Shown here piece by piece: positions 3,409-20,345 of a DNA stretch of 20,347 bases; within the stretch, counting starts at the first letter, position 1; each line of letters opens with the position of its first letter. Position numbers and translations under genes: made by a program. The notes beneath the pieces were generated by a model. The model searched no databases and had not been told where the DNA came from. It saw only the letters and a program-made list of their open reading frames with translations. Origin of the DNA: a virus; IMG/VR virus record IMGVR_UViG_3300030406_000167, positions 1-20,347 of that record; one strand, 5' to 3'.

Positions 3409-5958
3409 GTGGCATATAAAGCCGAGATAGATGTAAAAGTACGGAATCTTGGCTCGATTAGTCAATTAGAACAGAAGTTAAGCAGTATAAGCAAAAATGT
3501 AAACGCAATAAATAAGAAAAACCTAAAAGGTGGTGGAGGAGGTTCTAGGGCTACCAAAGATCCATTAAAAGATGAGTTAGCCAGTTTAAGATTACAAAAT
3601 ACAGCTTTATCTAATATAAATAGAGCACAAAGAGCAGCCAATAAGTTAAAGGACATAGGAGTAACTTTAGAAGAAGAAATGGCAGCTTTGAAAAAAGTGT
3701 CAAAAAGAAGTGTAAGCGATAGCTTAAGTGAGGACAGAAAGATTGTTGAATTAAAGAAGAAGAGTATTCAAGATGCTGAAAGATTAATACTACTCACACA
3801 AAAGAGGGGAAAAGCTCAAACAGAGGTAGCAAAAGCCACCGAAAGAACTCTCACAGCACAAGAGCGAATAAATGTTTTACGTTTATCTGGCAGTGCTAAT
3901 AAATTAGCAGGAGGAATGGGTGGATTTATTGATAACCAGAGAAAAGGTCTAGGTCCAGGGAATTTACTAGGCTTACCTAGTTCAAAAGATATAGAAGGTA
4001 GAGGAATACAGAGATTAGGAGCAACCCCAACAATTAGAGATAAAGCAGGAGAGTTTACTGCGAGTTCTGTAGAAAAGGCTGAATTTTTTGAAAAACGTAG
4101 AAATGCTGCTATTGAAAGAGGAATAGAAGCTAATAACAAATTAGTAGGCTCTGAGCGAATAAGAAATAGACAGACTATTAGAGTTAACAGAGCAATCGAG
4201 AAAAACAACAGACAGACTATAAGGCAAGCAAATAATCTCGTAAAGTTGGGAGATAGATTTGGTCAACTTGGAACAAATATAGCCAAATTCCAAGATGGTC
4301 TACTAAAAACTAGAGGACCAGGTGGAAGTATGCTCGCTCTTCCTAGTGCTCAAATGCTAGATAAAAGAGTTAAGGCTACAGGTCAAGCTGGTGGATTTAG
4401 TAGAGCAATACCAAGATTTAGGATGCCTTCTCCTACCAGAGGTTTTGATTTTGAAAGTGCTCTTATTAGTGGAGGTTTTCCTCTATTATTTGGTCAAGGT
4501 CCAGGTGTAGCAGCAGCAGGAGCTTTAGGTGGTGGTGTAGGTGGAATGTTTGGTGGTATGGGTGGTTTTGCAGGAGGTATTGCAGCTACCGCTTTAGTAA
4601 CCAGTATTCAAAATGCTATAAATGCAATAAGCGAATTAGGTCAAGCTCTCGGACCATTCACACAAAACAGTCAAGCTGCTATAGACGCACTGGGTTTACA
4701 AGGATCGGCAGAAGAAGCTCGAATAAAACTAATTGAACAGACAAAAGGTAAGACAGCAGCCTTCAATGCTGCCATGAACTTAATGTCCACTCAAATAGGA
4801 CAAAAAGGAGTCGATGCCCTAAAACAATTTGGTGATTCTACACGATTATTAGGTGGTCAATTTGCGCTCGCTCTTACTAAATTACAAGCATTTACAGCAG
4901 GAGTCGCAAACTTCATAATTAGAATTTCTGGATTGCAAGATTCTTTAGAAGCAGGAGCAGCTACTCAAACAGTTGCAGCAGCAGCAGGAGAAGGGAATGC
5001 AGAGGCAAAAGCCCTAGTTGCAAGAAGACAAGCTGCCGAATCCTTGAGAGGTCAAGGAGGTCAAGGTGCAAGGAAAAAACAATTATTAGAAGAAATTAGT
5101 GCTGAAGAAAAAATATTTGCAATTAGAAGAAATACAACAATAGAAGCAGATAACTTAACTCAGAAGTTTGATGCTTTGGGAATTAGCTTAAAAGCAGAGA
5201 AAGAAGAATCACAGCGAATATTAGAGCTAAGAAAACAGGGAATAAACCCAGAACTAGCTAAGACTCTTGCTTCTATTGAAAAGGAGGGCACTATAGCTAA
5301 AGATAATCTACAAGTTGAGATTGATAAACTTCTTGAAAAACAAGCTAAAGAGGGAGAACTTAATGAAAAACTTCAAACAAGACTAACAACACTTGAAAAA
5401 ATACAGGATGAAATAGATGAAGAAATTGGTTCAATGTCTGAACTTGCTGAAGCAACAGATGAATTAAATGAGTCAACTAAAAATTTAAAATCTAATTTTG
5501 AAAGAATTGGAGAATCTATTGCTTCTGGTGTTACTGACAATATAACTGCTGCTATTCAAGGAACAAAAACTTTGGGTGATGCAGCTAAATCAATTTTAAA
5601 CGATTTAAGCTCCTCACTTATACGACTCGGTGTGAATACATTATTATCTAAGATCCCTGGCTTCGGTGGTTTACCTATTTTAGGAACTAGATCAAAAGGT
5701 GGACCAGTTAGAACAGGAGGCAGTTTTGTAGTAGGAGAAAAAGGGCCAGAACTATTCGTACCAAAAAGATCAGGTACAATAATTCCTAATGATAAATTAG
5801 CTGGAGGAGGAACTACAAATATCAGTGTAAATGTAGATGCTTCTGGATCTTCTGTTCAAAGTAATGAGCAACAAGGAAAAGAGCTTGGCAGAGTTATTTC
5901 AGCAGCGATACAATCAGAATTAATTAAACAAAGAAGACCTGGAGGTTTATTAAGATAA
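3409..5958 (+). CDS. Tail tape measure protein
   Basis: About 849 aa, the length ruler for the tail and usually the longest or second-longest tail gene. I prefer GTG at 3409 (MAYKAEIDVKV), because GTG-GCA also starts the first gene of the window; TTG at 3403 is the alternative. The N-terminal third is Lys/Glu/Arg-rich and helical. A Gly/Ala-rich hydrophobic stretch (about residues 350-410, GGFPLLFGQGPG to ALVTSIQNAI) fits the segment thought to enter the host membrane during DNA injection. A coiled-coil region follows (about 540-680). The C-terminus has the conserved tape-measure block with GGPVRTGGSFVVGEKGPELF (about 765-785) and SGTIIPN. No lysozyme or peptidase domain is visible. The last base of its stop overlaps the next ATG. 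Confidence 0.93.
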   Translation: MAYKAEIDVKVRNLGSISQLEQKLSSISKNVNAINKKNLKGGGGGSRATKDPLKDELASLRLQNTALSNINRAQRAANKLKDIGVTLEEEMAALKKVSKRSVSDSLSEDRKIVELKKKSIQDAERLILLTQKRGKAQTEVAKATERTLTAQERINVLRLSGSANKLAGGMGGFIDNQRKGLGPGNLLGLPSSKDIEGRGIQRLGATPTIRDKAGEFTASSVEKAEFFEKRRNAAIERGIEANNKLVGSERIRNRQTIRVNRAIEKNNRQTIRQANNLVKLGDRFGQLGTNIAKFQDGLLKTRGPGGSMLALPSAQMLDKRVKATGQAGGFSRAIPRFRMPSPTRGFDFESALISGGFPLLFGQGPGVAAAGALGGGVGGMFGGMGGFAGGIAATALVTSIQNAINAISELGQALGPFTQNSQAAIDALGLQGSAEEARIKLIEQTKGKTAAFNAAMNLMSTQIGQKGVDALKQFGDSTRLLGGQFALALTKLQAFTAGVANFIIRISGLQDSLEAGAATQTVAAAAGEGNAEAKALVARRQAAESLRGQGGQGARKKQLLEEISAEEKIFAIRRNTTIEADNLTQKFDALGISLKAEKEESQRILELRKQGINPELAKTLASIEKEGTIAKDNLQVEIDKLLEKQAKEGELNEKLQTRLTTLEKIQDEIDEEIGSMSELAEATDELNESTKNLKSNFERIGESIASGVTDNITAAIQGTKTLGDAAKSILNDLSSSLIRLGVNTLLSKIPGFGGLPILGTRSKGGPVRTGGSFVVGEKGPELFVPKRSGTIIPNDKLAGGGTTNISVNVDASGSSVQSNEQQGKELGRVISAAIQSELIKQRRPGGLLR

Positions 5959-6299
5959 TGGCTACTTTTCCTAGTTATAACCCTGTTTTTTCTGCAAACA
6001 AAACTGATATTACTAATACTAGAGTAGTTCAGTTTGGTGATGGCTATCAGCAAAGATTTACTTTTGGTTTAAATCAAAATGCAAAACAATGGAGTTTAGT
6101 TTTTAACGAAGATAATACAGACGCAGCCATAATAGAAAGTTTTTTAGAAGCAAGAAAAGTTGATGGTGCATCTTTTGATTGGTCACCTCCAGATGAAACA
6201 GTAACTTATAAATGGGTATGTCCTTCTTTTACAAAAGAAATATTTGATTTCAATAGAAATAGAATAAATGTAACTTTCATACAAGTATTTGAACCCTAA
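5958..6299 (+). CDS. Minor tail protein, gpM-like
   Basis: A 113-aa protein, the usual size for lambda gpM-type tail tip proteins. The family pattern is clear: RVVQFGDGYQQRFTFGLN (about residues 22-39), then WSLVFNEDN (46-54), and the Asp/Trp-containing FDWSPPDE (about 74-81) with a following beta strand. These proteins form a ring between the tape measure base and the tail tip cone. It lies immediately after the tape measure and before the gpL-like gene, as in lambda, and both junctions are TAATG overlaps. Confidence 0.88.
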   Translation: MATFPSYNPVFSANKTDITNTRVVQFGDGYQQRFTFGLNQNAKQWSLVFNEDNTDAAIIESFLEARKVDGASFDWSPPDETVTYKWVCPSFTKEIFDFNRNRINVTFIQVFEP

Positions 6300-6889
6300 T
6301 GGCAAAACCTGTATCTGAAACCCAATCAATAAATCCTGGTTCAGTTATTGAAATGTTTGAACTGACAACAGACGCAGCTTTACATGGATCAGCTACTACA
6401 TATAGATTTCATGATGGCAGTAATCCAATAGCTTATGGCAATAATAATTCTAATGGAAATATCGTTTGGAACGGTAATACTTATATTGCTGTACCTTTAG
6501 AAGCTGATGGATTTAAATATGCGAATGGTCAATTACCCAGACCTACATTAACGATAAGTAATGTCACAAATTTAATTACAGCTATTTTATTAAATGTAAA
6601 TGTTGTAACCCCTGGAAATGATTTAACTGGTGCTGTAGTAACAAGAGTTAGAACATTAGCAAGATTTTTAGATGCTGTAAATTTTACAGGCAATACAAAT
6701 CCCTATGGAACCCCCGATCCAACAGCAGAATATGCAAAAGAAATATACAAAATTGATAGAAAATCAGCAGAAAACAGAGCCGTTGTTCAATTTGAATTAG
6801 CTGCTGCTTTTGATTTAGCAAACATACGAATACCTTTGAGAGTATGTACTAAAGAATTATTTCCTTCTATTGGTACGTTTATGCCATGA
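6299..6889 (+). CDS. Minor tail protein, gpL-like, lacking the Fe-S C-terminus
   Basis: A 196-aa protein whose N-terminal two thirds match the gpL pattern: [16 protein letters not shown] near the start, [17 protein letters not shown] (about residues 60-76), [10 protein letters not shown] (about 81-90), and the [20 protein letters not shown] segment (about 141-160). Lambda gpL is about 232 aa and ends in a cysteine-bearing domain that binds an iron-sulfur cluster. Here only one cysteine exists (C183) and the chain stops 13 residues later (FPSIGTFMP), so the cluster domain is absent. The stop overlaps the next start (ATGA), giving no sign of a recent frameshift. Tail tip location and M-L-K order make the family call firm. 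Confidence 0.85.
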
Positions 6890-14592: not shown

Positions 14593-15026
14593 TGTCAACA
14601 CTTAAAGTCACAAACGTAAAACACGAAACAAGCGGACTAAATACCCTCGTATTTGATAACGGTGGAACGTCTGGTGGTAATGGAAGAGTCACAACAAAAG
14701 GAACTATCGGAGAAGTTTCTGCTTTAGGAAACTTAGCTGCTGGTACTCATACTTTAGATTTCGGAACTGCTAATAATTTTTCAATGACACTTACAGGTAA
14801 TGTAACTCTTGCCAACCCTTCTAATATCTCTGCTGGACAGAGTGGTGTTTTGTTTATAACTCAAGATTCTAATGGAAGCAGAACCGCAGCGTTTGGATCG
14901 TATTGGGATTTTAGTGATGGTGTTGCACCTACATTATCTACAGGAGCAGATGCAGTTGATATGATTGCTTGGATCGCTCGATCATCTACTAAAATTTCTG
15001 CACAGTTTGTCGGAAACTTTAGCTAA
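14592..15026 (+). CDS. Short tail fibre protein
   Basis: A 144-aa protein that starts MSTLKVTNVKHETSGLNTLV, an N-terminal fibre module shared by many marine phage structural proteins. The body is Gly/Thr/Ser-rich beta repeats (TLDFGTANNFSMTLTGNVTL at about residues 56-75, then SAGQSGVLFITQDSNGSRTA at about 82-101). It finishes with AWIARSSTKISAQFVGNFS, a common phage fibre ending. It carries no obvious receptor-binding insert, so it may be a spacer or collar for the large adhesin that follows. Its stop overlaps the next ATG. Confidence 0.75.
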   Translation: MSTLKVTNVKHETSGLNTLVFDNGGTSGGNGRVTTKGTIGEVSALGNLAAGTHTLDFGTANNFSMTLTGNVTLANPSNISAGQSGVLFITQDSNGSRTAAFGSYWDFSDGVAPTLSTGADAVDMIAWIARSSTKISAQFVGNFS

Positions 15027-17815
15027 TGACCAGTATAGGAAGTCCATCACCTTTCTTTCTAGCAGGAAAGAAGGCATACGCAGTAGATCGCAGTTTAAGG
15101 TTTAATAGAGCAGATAGTACATATGTTACTAGATCGGTAAGTTCAACTGGAAACCGAAAAACTTGGACTGTTTCTTTTTGGATGAAATTTTGTGGAGTGA
15201 CACTAAATAATTCACAAAGATTATGGTCAAATGACTCAGGTAATGGTAGTGGTGATATTTTAAAAATAGAATTTGATAGTGGTTCTGATTCAAATAGAAG
15301 ACTATCAGTTATTGATAACAATCATGCTGGAAGTGGTATTAGATTTGTAGGCGATAGACGCTTTAGAGATCCTAGTGCATGGTATCACATAGTTTTGGCA
15401 GTCGATACGACACAAGCTACTGCTACTAATAGAGTTAAAATATATGTTAATAACGAACAAGTAAGTGATTGGAAAAGTGGGTCAGAACATAATCATCCAC
15501 CAGATCAAAATTATGATACTTGTGTAAATCTGTCTGGTAAAAGTAATACTTGGGGTCGCTCCTTTTCTTTTGGTAATTCATCCGCAGATCATTTTGATGG
15601 TTATTTAGCAGAAATCAATTTTATTGATGGATTTCAATATGATCCTTCATATTTTGGAGAAACAAATGTTATAACTGGTCAATGGAATCCTAAAAAGTAT
15701 GTTGGAAGTTATGGAACAAATGGTTATTATTTAAATTTTTCAGACAATTCTGGAACGACTGCAACAACACTTGGCAAAGATTCAAGTGGTAATGGTAATA
15801 ATTTCACACCAAATAATTTTTCTGTAGCTGCTGGTGCTGGTAATGATTCTGTACAAGATACACCAACTAATAATTTCTGTACTTTAAACGCTATAGCATT
15901 AGGGCAAGGAAATGAACAAAGAGCAACTTTAAGTAATGGTAATTTAGATTTCACCGAATCAAGTTCTAGTAATAGAACTGCTGTTAGCACTTTTGGATTA
16001 AAAACTGGCAAATGGTATTTTGAGTTCTTAAGCACCAATACTGGTACATTTTCTATAGGCTGGCACGATATGGAAAATAATCAGGGATCTTTTTATAGAA
16101 ATAATGGTTATTACTCTTCATCTTTTGGAGGAGGAGGTGCATCTGGTTATGCTTCTTGGACAACTAATGATATTGTGGGAGTTGCTATTGATTTCGATAG
16201 TGGGAAAATATGGTATGCAAAAAATAATACCTGGCAATCAGGTGATCCAGCCACAGGAAATTCTCCTACAAATACTTTTACAACAGGTAGAACTCTTCAT
16301 ACAGAGGCTTTTACTGATAACAGTTCTGGCACTAAGTCTGGATCGTTTAATTATGGACAAAGACCATTTACTTATACCCCTCCAACAGGGTATAAATCAA
16401 TGTGCTCTGCAAACTTACCCGACCCAGCAATAACGCTACCTAATAAACATTTTGGAATAATTTTATACACAGGTAATGGTTCATCACAATCTATATCAGA
16501 TTCAAATGCTGTAAACTTTAAACCTGATTGGATTTGGTTTAAAAAAAGAAATGAAGCTGAAAGTCACCATCTAAGTGATTCAGTTAGAGGTGCAAATAAA
16601 CGATTAATATCAAATAGCAACGCAGCAGAAACTACTGACAATAACCTGACATCATTTGATAATAATGGTTTTACGATTAGTGGTACAAGTGGAGGGTCAA
16701 CAAATGATAATAGCGATACTTACGTTGCATGGAACTGGAATGGTGGCGATACAGATGGTAAAACTTATACAGTAAAAGTTCACAATTTTTCTGGAAATAA
16801 TAGGTATATCTTTGATGATTTTCAAACTGAAGCTGTGACTATTCGTCTTGCAAAAGGTGGTACTTATATTTTCAATATGGATGACTCTTCAAACGCTTCA
16901 CATCCATTCAGTATTGGAACGGCAGCTAACGGAACTGTTTATGCTGTTGGAACTACATACTTTTTAGATGGAGTATCTAAAAGTTATGCTGACTATACTT
17001 CTGGTTTTTATGCTGCTACTACAAGAAGATTACATATAACAGTACCAGCAAATGCACCAGTGCTCTACTATTGGTGCTCAAATCACAGTGGGATGGGTGG
17101 GCAGATAGATACAAACTCTGATCTTGGCTCAAGTAATTTTGATGGCACAATTCAATCATTAGTAAAAGTTAATACAACAGCAGGGTTTTCTATAATTACA
17201 TGGACAGGTAATCAAACATCAGGAGCTACATTAGGACATGGATTAGGAGTTGCACCTAAAATTGCATTTGTTAAAAGACGAGATGGCACAGGTAATTGGA
17301 TTGTACCTTTTTTCGATTTACAAACTGCTGGAAAATTAAATGATCAAGATGCTTTTACAAATAATTATTACAATGTTTTCTTTACAAGTCAGCCATCATC
17401 AACTTTACTAACAATAGGCAGTAATGATGATATTAATAGAAATACTTCAACTTATGTAGCTTATGTATTTAGCGAAGTAGCAGGGTATAGCAAACGTGGT
17501 AACTATACTGGAAATGGTTCTTCTAGTGGGCCGTTTGTTTTTACAGGTTTTAGACCAGCCTGGGTCATAATTAAACAAACTGGACAAATGGATTGGGTTA
17601 TTGATGATACTACAAGAAGCCCATTTAACGAATCAAATGCTACTCTTTTCTCAAACTTAAATGATGCAGAATATACAGGGGGTGCGTATGGTATAGATTT
17701 TTATTCAAATGGGTTTAGACCCTTAAACACATACACTCAATACAACGCAAATGGAGGAACATATATTTATTTAGCATTTGCAGAATCTCCTTTCAAAAAT
17801 GCAAGGGCAAGGTAA
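15026..17815 (+). CDS. Large multi-domain adhesin: LamG, SPRY, repeats and cupredoxin-like insert
   Basis: A 929-aa tail adhesin. Residues about 18-200 form a LamG/concanavalin-like lectin: SLRFNRADSTYVTRS, WTVSFWMK, WYHIVLAVDTTQ, then KIYVNNEQVSDW. Residues about 320-445 are SPRY-like (GKWYFEFLS, FSIGWHDM, GVAIDFDSGKIWYAKN, ending FNYGQRPFTYTPPTGY). Three copies of a 'TGNG...F.P.W...K' unit begin near residues 478, 723 and 828. Between copies 1 and 2, about residues 580-700, sits a cupredoxin-like domain with H626, C684, H687 and M690 (YYWCSNHSGMGG). Several domains fit glycan or protein recognition, so this is the best receptor-binding candidate in the window. Copper binding is untested: spacing after the Cys (C-x2-H-x2-M) is shorter than in plastocyanin. 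Confidence 0.85.
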   Translation: MTSIGSPSPFFLAGKKAYAVDRSLRFNRADSTYVTRSVSSTGNRKTWTVSFWMKFCGVTLNNSQRLWSNDSGNGSGDILKIEFDSGSDSNRRLSVIDNNHAGSGIRFVGDRRFRDPSAWYHIVLAVDTTQATATNRVKIYVNNEQVSDWKSGSEHNHPPDQNYDTCVNLSGKSNTWGRSFSFGNSSADHFDGYLAEINFIDGFQYDPSYFGETNVITGQWNPKKYVGSYGTNGYYLNFSDNSGTTATTLGKDSSGNGNNFTPNNFSVAAGAGNDSVQDTPTNNFCTLNAIALGQGNEQRATLSNGNLDFTESSSSNRTAVSTFGLKTGKWYFEFLSTNTGTFSIGWHDMENNQGSFYRNNGYYSSSFGGGGASGYASWTTNDIVGVAIDFDSGKIWYAKNNTWQSGDPATGNSPTNTFTTGRTLHTEAFTDNSSGTKSGSFNYGQRPFTYTPPTGYKSMCSANLPDPAITLPNKHFGIILYTGNGSSQSISDSNAVNFKPDWIWFKKRNEAESHHLSDSVRGANKRLISNSNAAETTDNNLTSFDNNGFTISGTSGGSTNDNSDTYVAWNWNGGDTDGKTYTVKVHNFSGNNRYIFDDFQTEAVTIRLAKGGTYIFNMDDSSNASHPFSIGTAANGTVYAVGTTYFLDGVSKSYADYTSGFYAATTRRLHITVPANAPVLYYWCSNHSGMGGQIDTNSDLGSSNFDGTIQSLVKVNTTAGFSIITWTGNQTSGATLGHGLGVAPKIAFVKRRDGTGNWIVPFFDLQTAGKLNDQDAFTNNYYNVFFTSQPSSTLLTIGSNDDINRNTSTYVAYVFSEVAGYSKRGNYTGNGSSSGPFVFTGFRPAWVIIKQTGQMDWVIDDTTRSPFNESNATLFSNLNDAEYTGGAYGIDFYSNGFRPLNTYTQYNANGGTYIYLAFAESPFKNARAR

Positions 17816-17824
17816 TATAGAGTT

Positions 17825-18370
17825 ATGGCTTTTAAATTAAACGGATCACCCTTAGCTATTGATGTTGCATTTAAAACATCTGATGGAACACAGTACCCTG
17901 CTAACTGGTTAAGACTTGCTAGTGCTGATGAAAAAGCAGCCTTAAAAATTACAGAGGTTGCTGATGATCCAATATATGATTCACGTTTTTATTGGGGTGA
18001 TGGAACTGCAAAAACTCTCACAGATACAAATGAAGTTGATGAGAATGGTGATCCATTATTAGATGAAAATGGAAATCAAGTTGTTACTTTAGGTGTTAAA
18101 TCAGTATTAAAGGCACAGGAAAAAGCAACTGCTGGTAGTTTATTAGCAAAATATGATTGGTACGTTGTAAGAAAAGCAGAGACATCAAAAGCTATTCCTA
18201 CAGCAATAAAAACTTACAGGACTGCAATTAGAACTGCTTGTGCAACAAGAGAAACAGAAATTGATAACTGTGCAGATACCGCAGCTTTAATTACTCTTTA
18301 TGGACAAACAGAAAAAGATGGAGTGTTTACTCCAAATATGACACAATATCCAGTAGATCCTAACGGGTAG
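17825..18370 (+). CDS. Probable tail fibre assembly protein
   Basis: A 181-aa soluble protein after the large adhesin. Its N-terminal segment, DGTQYPANWLRLASADEKAA (about residues 20-39) followed by LKITEVADDP, is typical of short proteins that follow phage fibre genes and are related to fibre-assembly chaperones. A mid-region with EVDENGDPLLDENGNQVVTL (about 71-90) and a helical second half (about 95-160, including the pair C139 and C147) follow. It probably folds or trimerises the upstream adhesin. The last 11 nt overlap a minus-strand micro-ORF. Confidence 0.7.
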   Translation: MAFKLNGSPLAIDVAFKTSDGTQYPANWLRLASADEKAALKITEVADDPIYDSRFYWGDGTAKTLTDTNEVDENGDPLLDENGNQVVTLGVKSVLKAQEKATAGSLLAKYDWYVVRKAETSKAIPTAIKTYRTAIRTACATRETEIDNCADTAALITLYGQTEKDGVFTPNMTQYPVDPNG

Positions 18371-19575: not shown

Positions 19576-19634
19576 TAAGCAAAGGAAGTTCTAACCACAG
19601 CTAACACTCCCTAGTTAGAAAGAGCTTTTGCTTA
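19576..19634. ncRNA. Structured intergenic element: candidate small RNA or boundary hairpin
   Basis: TAAGCAAA (19576-19583) pairs with TTTGCTTA (19627-19634). Inside it TTCTAAC (19589-19595) pairs with GTTAGAA (19614-19620). This leaves an internal loop (GGAAG opposite AGAGCT) and an 18-nt apical loop. It begins 7 nt after a perfect TATAAT and its right arm covers the stop codon of the minus-strand gene at 19632. It is too short for a tRNA and lacks a T-arm. No long T-run follows on either strand, so it is not a classic terminator. Confidence 0.35.
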
Positions 19635-20345
19635 CTTTAATTTGTGAGTATGTGGGATAACTTGATTAGCCTTCGGCACTAAATAAACATCTTTACAGAT
19701 ATTAAAAAAGGGACTATCGGCAGTCAGCATTATTCCCTCCTGTTTCAACTTTCCACATTCACGGATTCTTGCGATCTGCCAATCAAGCCTTTTGTTCTCC
19801 AGGACTTGCTTTTGTATAGAAATCTGTGTATCAGCAGCAGATTTACATTGATTTTGAAAACCTCTATCTAACGGAATACTAAACGTAGCTGATATTCCAA
19901 AGTTCAAAGCATAACTATCTTTATTCGTTCCAGAATAATTTTTTTGATTGAAAAGCACATTACCTGGGTTATCTGGCACACCATCGTCATTAGCATCTGT
20001 TGGATCGTAAAAAGGTGTTTCATAGTAATCCCGATAAGGCTTGAGGTAATTTGCTCCAAAAGTGGTGAATGGGCTAATAGATAAGGTTGGCCCTTGGCAT
20101 ACAATATTGCCACCATACTGATTAGTTGTCATATTACCCGTAAGCGTTTGTACAGCCATATTCGTGACGCTTCCGTTGTTTGACTGACTTACAGCATTAG
20201 CTAAAACCTGTGCAGGAGATAGCAGAATTACTGAGAGAACACTGAGGTACTTGTAACTACGCTTGTTGACTCTATATTTCTTTGGATCGTTGTCACGTTT
20301 GATACCCCACCTGGGCCACGATAAGTTTCTGTAAATTGAAATGCG
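19632..20345 (-). CDS. Secreted conserved hypothetical protein (start beyond or unclear)
   Basis: The minus-strand frame is open from 19632 to the right edge. The first in-frame ATG, at 20159-20157, would give 175 aa. The codons before it, however, encode an evident signal peptide: KRSYKYLSVLSVILLSPAQV then LANA, followed by VSQSNNGSVTN. The true start is therefore upstream, yet no ATG, GTG or TTG occurs in frame up to 20345, so the start is outside the window or is a rare ATT/ATC. The mature part has NIVCQGPTLSISPF, an Asp-rich DPTDANDDGVPDNPG loop that looks calcium-binding, and GISATFSIPLD. A helical C-terminus contains RIRECGKLKQEG and FFNICKDVYL with paired cysteines. I associate it with a conserved cyanophage/picocyanobacterial family; function is unknown. 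Confidence 0.65.
   Translation of the reverse strand, partial: RISIYRNLSWPRWGIKRDNDPKKYRVNKRSYKYLSVLSVILLSPAQVLANAVSQSNNGSVTNMAVQTLTGNMTTNQYGGNIVCQGPTLSISPFTTFGANYLKPYRDYYETPFYDPTDANDDGVPDNPGNVLFNQKNYSGTNKDSYALNFGISATFSIPLDRGFQNQCKSAADTQISIQKQVLENKRLDWQIARIRECGKLKQEGIMLTADSPFFNICKDVYLVPKANQVIPHTHKLK

Follow-up and report, generated by a model that had tools for sequence, protein, structure and literature searches.

Small β-sandwich domains of the Ig-like type occur on phages as promiscuous modules (PMC10385173, PMC10721106, PMC10276861). Metal has also been described at the tail end, in the iron-binding HxH tail fibres of T4 (gp37) and Alteromonas phage R22Y (PMC11705849) and in the [4Fe-4S] domain of lambda gpL, which has four Cys (PMC10721106). 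The phage metal sites that we found described in the open-access literature are iron sites, and no report of a cupredoxin on a phage, virion or cyanophage was found there. Cupredoxins of the plastocyanin, amicyanin and pseudoazurin type (PF00127) are soluble electron carriers, whereas the cupredoxin-like module described here is part of a viral adhesin. Like the Ig-like domains of Hoc, gpJ (FNIII-A) and the R4C adaptor, it is a small, horizontally spread β-sandwich that occurs in virion proteins with no relation to one another, but it belongs to another family and keeps copper ligands, while the Ig-like domains have no metal site. With the HxH fibres and lambda gpL it would share a metal at the tail end, predicted to be copper; those proteins have unrelated folds and ligands and bind iron, and neither is a cupredoxin. 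The module appears to be undescribed as a family.

The window, a stretch of 20,347 nucleotides of viral DNA (IMG/VR record IMGVR_UViG_3300030406_000167), carries lambda-like tail genes (tape measure, M-, L-, K-, I- and J-like), several fibre-type genes and, downstream of these, the adhesin gene. Marine virus AG-345-A17 is the nearest relative of the phage (78% in gpK, 65% in J); the Prochlorococcus siphophages MED4-117 and P-HS2 are more distant (38% in J). Photosystem genes, sought as a clue to a cyanobacterial host, are absent from eight related contigs, which is uninformative on the host. The features of the adhesin region are as follows.

15026-17815, + strand: tail adhesin of 929 amino acids (open reading frame call, Pfam, PHROGs)
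16436-16756, + strand: DUF7483 repeat 1 (residues ~471-577), ending ...YVAWNWNGGD at the insertion point
16757 to about 17116, + strand: cupredoxin-like inserted domain (residues ~578-697), with no Pfam match of its own
17117-17815, + strand: remainder of DUF7483 after the insert, repeats 2 and 3
17825-18370, + strand: gene resembling a tail-fibre assembly chaperone, directly after the adhesin (PHROG 4912, E 1.3e-7; Pfam Phage_tail_APC below cut-off)

We consider it likely that residues 578-697 form an independently folding cupredoxin with an intact type 1 site, serving as an exchangeable copper-binding surface module that aids adsorption.

The N-terminal region of the adhesin is probably LamG/lectin-like, judging by the annotations of its relatives, and a weak SPRY-like region covers residues 329-404 (Pfam). 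Relatives in PHROGs are called virion structural or tail fibre proteins. The adhesin belongs to DUF7483 (PF24299; 318 bits against a cut-off of 27), on which no paper was found in the open-access literature. The match (E 8e-95) falls in two stretches, and Pfam models the flanks of the insert as one domain; the stretch after the insert starts at model position 106, and the insert therefore lies near that position. DUF7483 itself contains three related repeats (repeat 1 against repeat 3, z 8.7 over shuffles; repeat 2 is weaker), with the insert placed between repeats 1 and 2.

Alignment with homologues reveals ~120 extra residues in the window adhesin between YVAWNWNGGD and SSNFDGTIQS. The adhesins of CRP-811, MEP301, SS120-1 and HTVC202P are continuous through this site, for example YVAWNWLAGNG/TSSNTDGSITSTVSVN, and the phages with such empty-site homologues are those of Roseobacter, Methylophilales, Pelagibacter and Prochlorococcus. 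Synechococcus phage S-B68 carries an insert at the same place as the window adhesin. It is the only one with an insert among 54 isolate records with a strong adhesin match, absence having been followed residue by residue for four homologues and judged for the remaining records by the alignment breaking into pieces. An IMG/VR query with the C-terminal part of DUF7483 returned three loci only, so no insert frequency was derived. The sequence-only reading had proposed a modular insertion that interrupts two copies of a repeated domain; homologous adhesins with empty and filled sites bear out the insertion, and its placement within the repeats was essentially right. The homologous adhesin of the Pelagibacter phage HTVC202P (L039, 1462-4003) is annotated as three consecutive genes, not one.

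Four residues of the insert align with the copper ligands of plastocyanin.

16901-16903 (cat), + strand: H626, predicted first type 1 copper ligand, aligned with the plastocyanin ligand His
17075-17095, + strand: C684-x2-H687-x2-M690, predicted remaining copper ligands, aligned with the plastocyanin Cys, His and Met

The segments SHPFSIG and YYWCSNHSGMGG, from which a copper site had been suggested, are present in the open reading frame, and all four residues were confirmed at the codon level (C684, 17075-17077, tgc; H687, 17084-17086, cac; M690, 17093-17095, atg). The domain has the His, Cys, His and axial Met of a type 1 (blue) copper site in canonical order.

Single-sequence searches of the domain against Pfam and the PDB gave nothing useful. 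No Pfam family reaches its cut-off for the module: the window domain falls outside PF00127 (Copper-bind), for which the best family member gave an E of 0.078, below the cut-off, and it matches none of the Ig-like families Big_2, I-set and FN3. Profile comparisons were more sensitive. Using hhalign, the family profile matched 52 cupredoxin stretches, drawn from 51 genome loci found with PF00127, with a probability of 96.9 and a single-comparison E of 1.6e-10, and all four ligands were co-aligned. When the ligand columns were masked, the match dropped to 34.6% (E 4e-4); a large share of the sequence signal therefore comes from the ligand motif. A chance motif was rejected, since reversed or column-shuffled profiles scored 0-0.7%. 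Against the PDB, a 67-sequence profile retrieved CuNIR (3.6e-6), plastocyanins (from 4.1e-5), amicyanin (2e-3) and pseudoazurin, and nearly all of the 60 matches listed are cupredoxin-fold proteins; the alignment used for the PDB search and for a second model (A4) was built almost wholly from sequences picked for carrying all four ligands. Antibody chains, mixed with cupredoxins in a first PDB profile search (A1), reflect a chance YYC match and nearly all disappeared with the deeper A4.

The AlphaFold model of the domain has a pLDDT of 92.0 and a pTM of 0.86. Foldseek against solved structures placed the cupredoxin AcoP of Acidithiobacillus ferrooxidans first (PDB 7z3b, 7z3f; E 1.2e-4, prob 1.00), with a TM-score of about 0.5 and no sequence family link shown. 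It was followed by multicopper oxidases (laccases), CuNIR and other proteins including factor VIII, PAD2 and N2OR, which we take to contain cupredoxin folds. Solved cupredoxins are matched with modest TM-scores (about 0.50-0.56), which indicates a remote member of the superfamily with its own decorations. In the model, the first His lies just before a strand, the Cys ends the penultimate strand, and the second His and the Met lie in the loop before the last strand; this predicted strand order is the cupredoxin topology. A search of the predicted structure for a fold other than a cupredoxin found none. Thus, profile-profile comparison, PDB profile search and structure prediction with Foldseek all point to cupredoxins, in support of the type 1 copper-protein fold first suggested, and the domain joins the superfamily by a predicted β-sandwich fold and by sequence homology that is weaker with the ligands masked.

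Comparison with the PF00127 proteins shows a homologous profile, a His followed by C-x2-H..M, and the same strand order around the site. Unlike in those proteins, the module His precedes Pro rather than Asn, and the stretch from His to Cys is variable, spanning 40-76 residues. The C-terminal cupredoxins of CuNIR 6hbe and 9cck have CX2HX2M, as in the module.

We gathered relatives from phage genomes, IMG/VR and GTDB genomes and reduced them to 83 sequences below 70% identity (nr70; median pairwise identity 31%). All four ligands are present in 70 of the 83, a proportion somewhat overestimated because profile recruitment favours ligand-bearing copies; such retention among divergent relatives argues that the motif is not a chance one. 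The four ligand columns are 87-89% conserved, and the equivalent of H626 is retained in 74/83. CX2HX2M, which is the amicyanin spacing, occurs in 68 of the 70 intact relatives, and Gln replaces Met in one copy. Retention and loss affect the four ligands as a block: of the complete rows, 70 carry all four, 1 carries three, none carries two, 5 carry one and 6 have lost every ligand, and the 6 partial sites compare with ~33 expected under independent loss, several of the degenerate copies being mutually related. The structural positions G34, F39, G72 and Y105, which are similarly conserved, erode gradually (66/10/5). Copies that have lost most or all of the copper ligands include the wedge proteins at L037 and L032, gp7 at L030, and L133, L155 and L160. 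The fold can persist without the copper site.

These counts bear on the strongest of the rival explanations, that the domain is a metal-free cupredoxin-fold decoration which, in the manner of the Ig-like domains of phages, makes weak contacts with surfaces or acts as a spacer, and that its copper residues are relics. Loss of the whole site in some copies fits this explanation, as do the promiscuous insertion into different virion proteins, the tandem copies and the Thr-rich linkers in gpL described below, and Ig-like domains behave in this way (PMC10385173). It is harder to reconcile with the block loss in place of single erosion, with the intact site of the window copy and 70/83 relatives, and with the survival of the ligands through core swaps that alter most other residues. 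Given this joint retention or loss of the ligands, a metal-free rigid decoration is less likely than the sequence-only reading implied, and we regard it as unlikely. Retention of the site suggests that metal binding is part of the function.

Two further readings concern what the site holds and does. The cupredoxin ligand set is able to bind Zn(II) or Cu(I), and zinc would be favoured over copper during cytoplasmic assembly, so that either ion could be the natural occupant and act purely as a structural staple; nearly all intact copies, however, have Met as the fourth ligand, which is typical of copper sites, and we judge this reading exceedingly unlikely. Similarly, type 1 sites are normally redox sites and the intact ligand set would allow the domain to transfer electrons or to shield the tail from oxidants. 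The adhesin is extracellular and has no redox partner domain, and Pfam and PHROGs revealed no oxidase or trinuclear-site partner in it; a redox role thus seems extremely improbable. The reading of a copper-binding adsorption module remains preferred over both.

We next consider the mobility of the module, for which a second carrier protein is informative.

6299-6889, + strand: gpL-like minor tail protein, with an empty second insertion site after ...ARFLDAVNF, at about nucleotide 6686

In three relatives (L035 4557-5549, L258 and L259; AG-345-A17 and the IMG/VR phages G180 and G181) the module lies inside this gpL-like tail-tip protein. These copies are related to the window module and have Thr-rich linkers on their flanks. 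The window gpL is continuous through the site and its flanks are otherwise closely similar to those of the relatives. In G180 and G181, the adhesin and the gpL-like protein each contain the module.

Exchange has also occurred within a single site. The loci L004 and L024 have flanks with DNA identity of 93-100% over 900 bases 5' and about 98-100% 3', whereas the domain core between them (around locus position 4001-4360) is only 42% identical, with the four ligands kept in both. The replaced core is probably a recent cassette exchange, an assembly chimera being less likely. Two types of N-terminal block and three types of core occur in all six combinations, counting S-B68, a pattern that calls for recombination within the domain or for types that arose repeatedly. 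Between adhesins that are 33-65% identical elsewhere, the domain reaches 83-97% protein identity, and identity at fourfold sites is 66-84% in the domain against 41-66% elsewhere, being higher in the domain for all ten pairs listed. The module is exchanged more freely than its carrier protein. Empty and filled sites, cassette exchange and recurrence on other tail proteins make up the computational case for modularity.

The domain is widespread. With the window domain as query, 304 of 50,697 phage records matched, and a relative from P-SSM2 (a gp9-type domain) matched 352/50,697; 298 and 345 of these, respectively, have Synechococcus, Prochlorococcus or cyanophage names. More than 580 stretches were found among the IMG/VR matches listed, tandem copies of the module occur, and plasmids searched for it gave no match. 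In T4-like cyanophages the domain is the C-terminal part of gp9, the baseplate-fibre connector, and is also found in gp7 and wedge proteins, in line with the sequence-only reading, which had expected relatives of the domain elsewhere among the virion proteins of marine phages. The cyanophages S-SSM4, P-SSM4 and Syn9 are among those with gp9-type domains. Cyanophage gp9 with a terminal cupredoxin-like domain and intact ligands is encoded at L029 (3856-5034), L032 (5002-6234) and L037 (2040-3269).

Outside phages, the domain forms the end of CHRD or DUF7282 proteins from flavobacteria and related organisms. It also ends proteins of marine group II archaea (L091, L094-L109, L111), which are collagen-like where tested (L091, L096). 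These archaeal copies resemble the phage 'HPLRFSTTSDGTHGGG' core, and exchange of the module between phages and archaea is possible.

The cyanophage names suggest another explanation, a copper 'Trojan horse' in which the metal-loaded site baits a host copper-uptake or copper-trafficking receptor. Cyanobacteria, unusually among bacteria, import copper for thylakoid plastocyanin, and 345 of the 352 records with the gp9-type domain bear such names. An iron analogue has been proposed for tail fibres (PMC11705849). Against this, flavobacteria and archaea have the domain in proteins of their own, and because the many cyanophage records are close relatives of one another, the host bias may be one inheritance. 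We consider the explanation very unlikely.

Insertion into a loop of a receptor-binding protein, freer exchange than the carrier, and recurrence on tail proteins near the host-facing end make an adsorption module the best explanation. We propose that the domain occupies the loop that connects repeats 1 and 2 of DUF7483, and that each chain most likely binds a single copper ion, which would fix the CX2HX2M ligand loop. The exchangeable module may then help the tail end to grip the host envelope or its extracellular polymers, a role that we infer from the gene context. Free copper is scarce in the cytoplasm, where virions assemble, which counts against copper as the metal and its occupancy in the virion; because virion proteins fold there, the site would probably be filled late, with copper from lysis or seawater.

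If correct, this would be the first copper-binding decoration on virions, one that distal adhesin, tail-tip and T4-like baseplate proteins have in common across hundreds of marine cyanophages. Many 'hypothetical' structural proteins would gain a domain identity, copper may be present on many ocean viruses at the tip in contact with the host, and the copper dependence of cyanophage adsorption becomes directly testable. More tentatively, and with considerable doubt on our part, the module could represent a large, unnamed and mobile blue-copper family on the host-contacting end of marine phages, in which copper from lysis or seawater arms the adhesin, adsorption depends on copper, and ocean phages form a pool of protein-bound copper.

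Finally, several observations were made beside these results. The window gpL-like protein stops right behind a single Cys, as do those of three relatives, and thus lacks the greater part of the four-Cys [4Fe-4S] domain known from lambda gpL. No RNA families or tRNAs were found within the window. A contig of Rhodopirellula sp. NAT69 (L078) encodes gp9- and wedge-like cyanophage proteins; it is probably phage DNA that was assigned to a planctomycete genome during binning. At the end of the window, an open frame on the minus strand (19632-20345) opposes the direction of the tail genes and runs off the window end.
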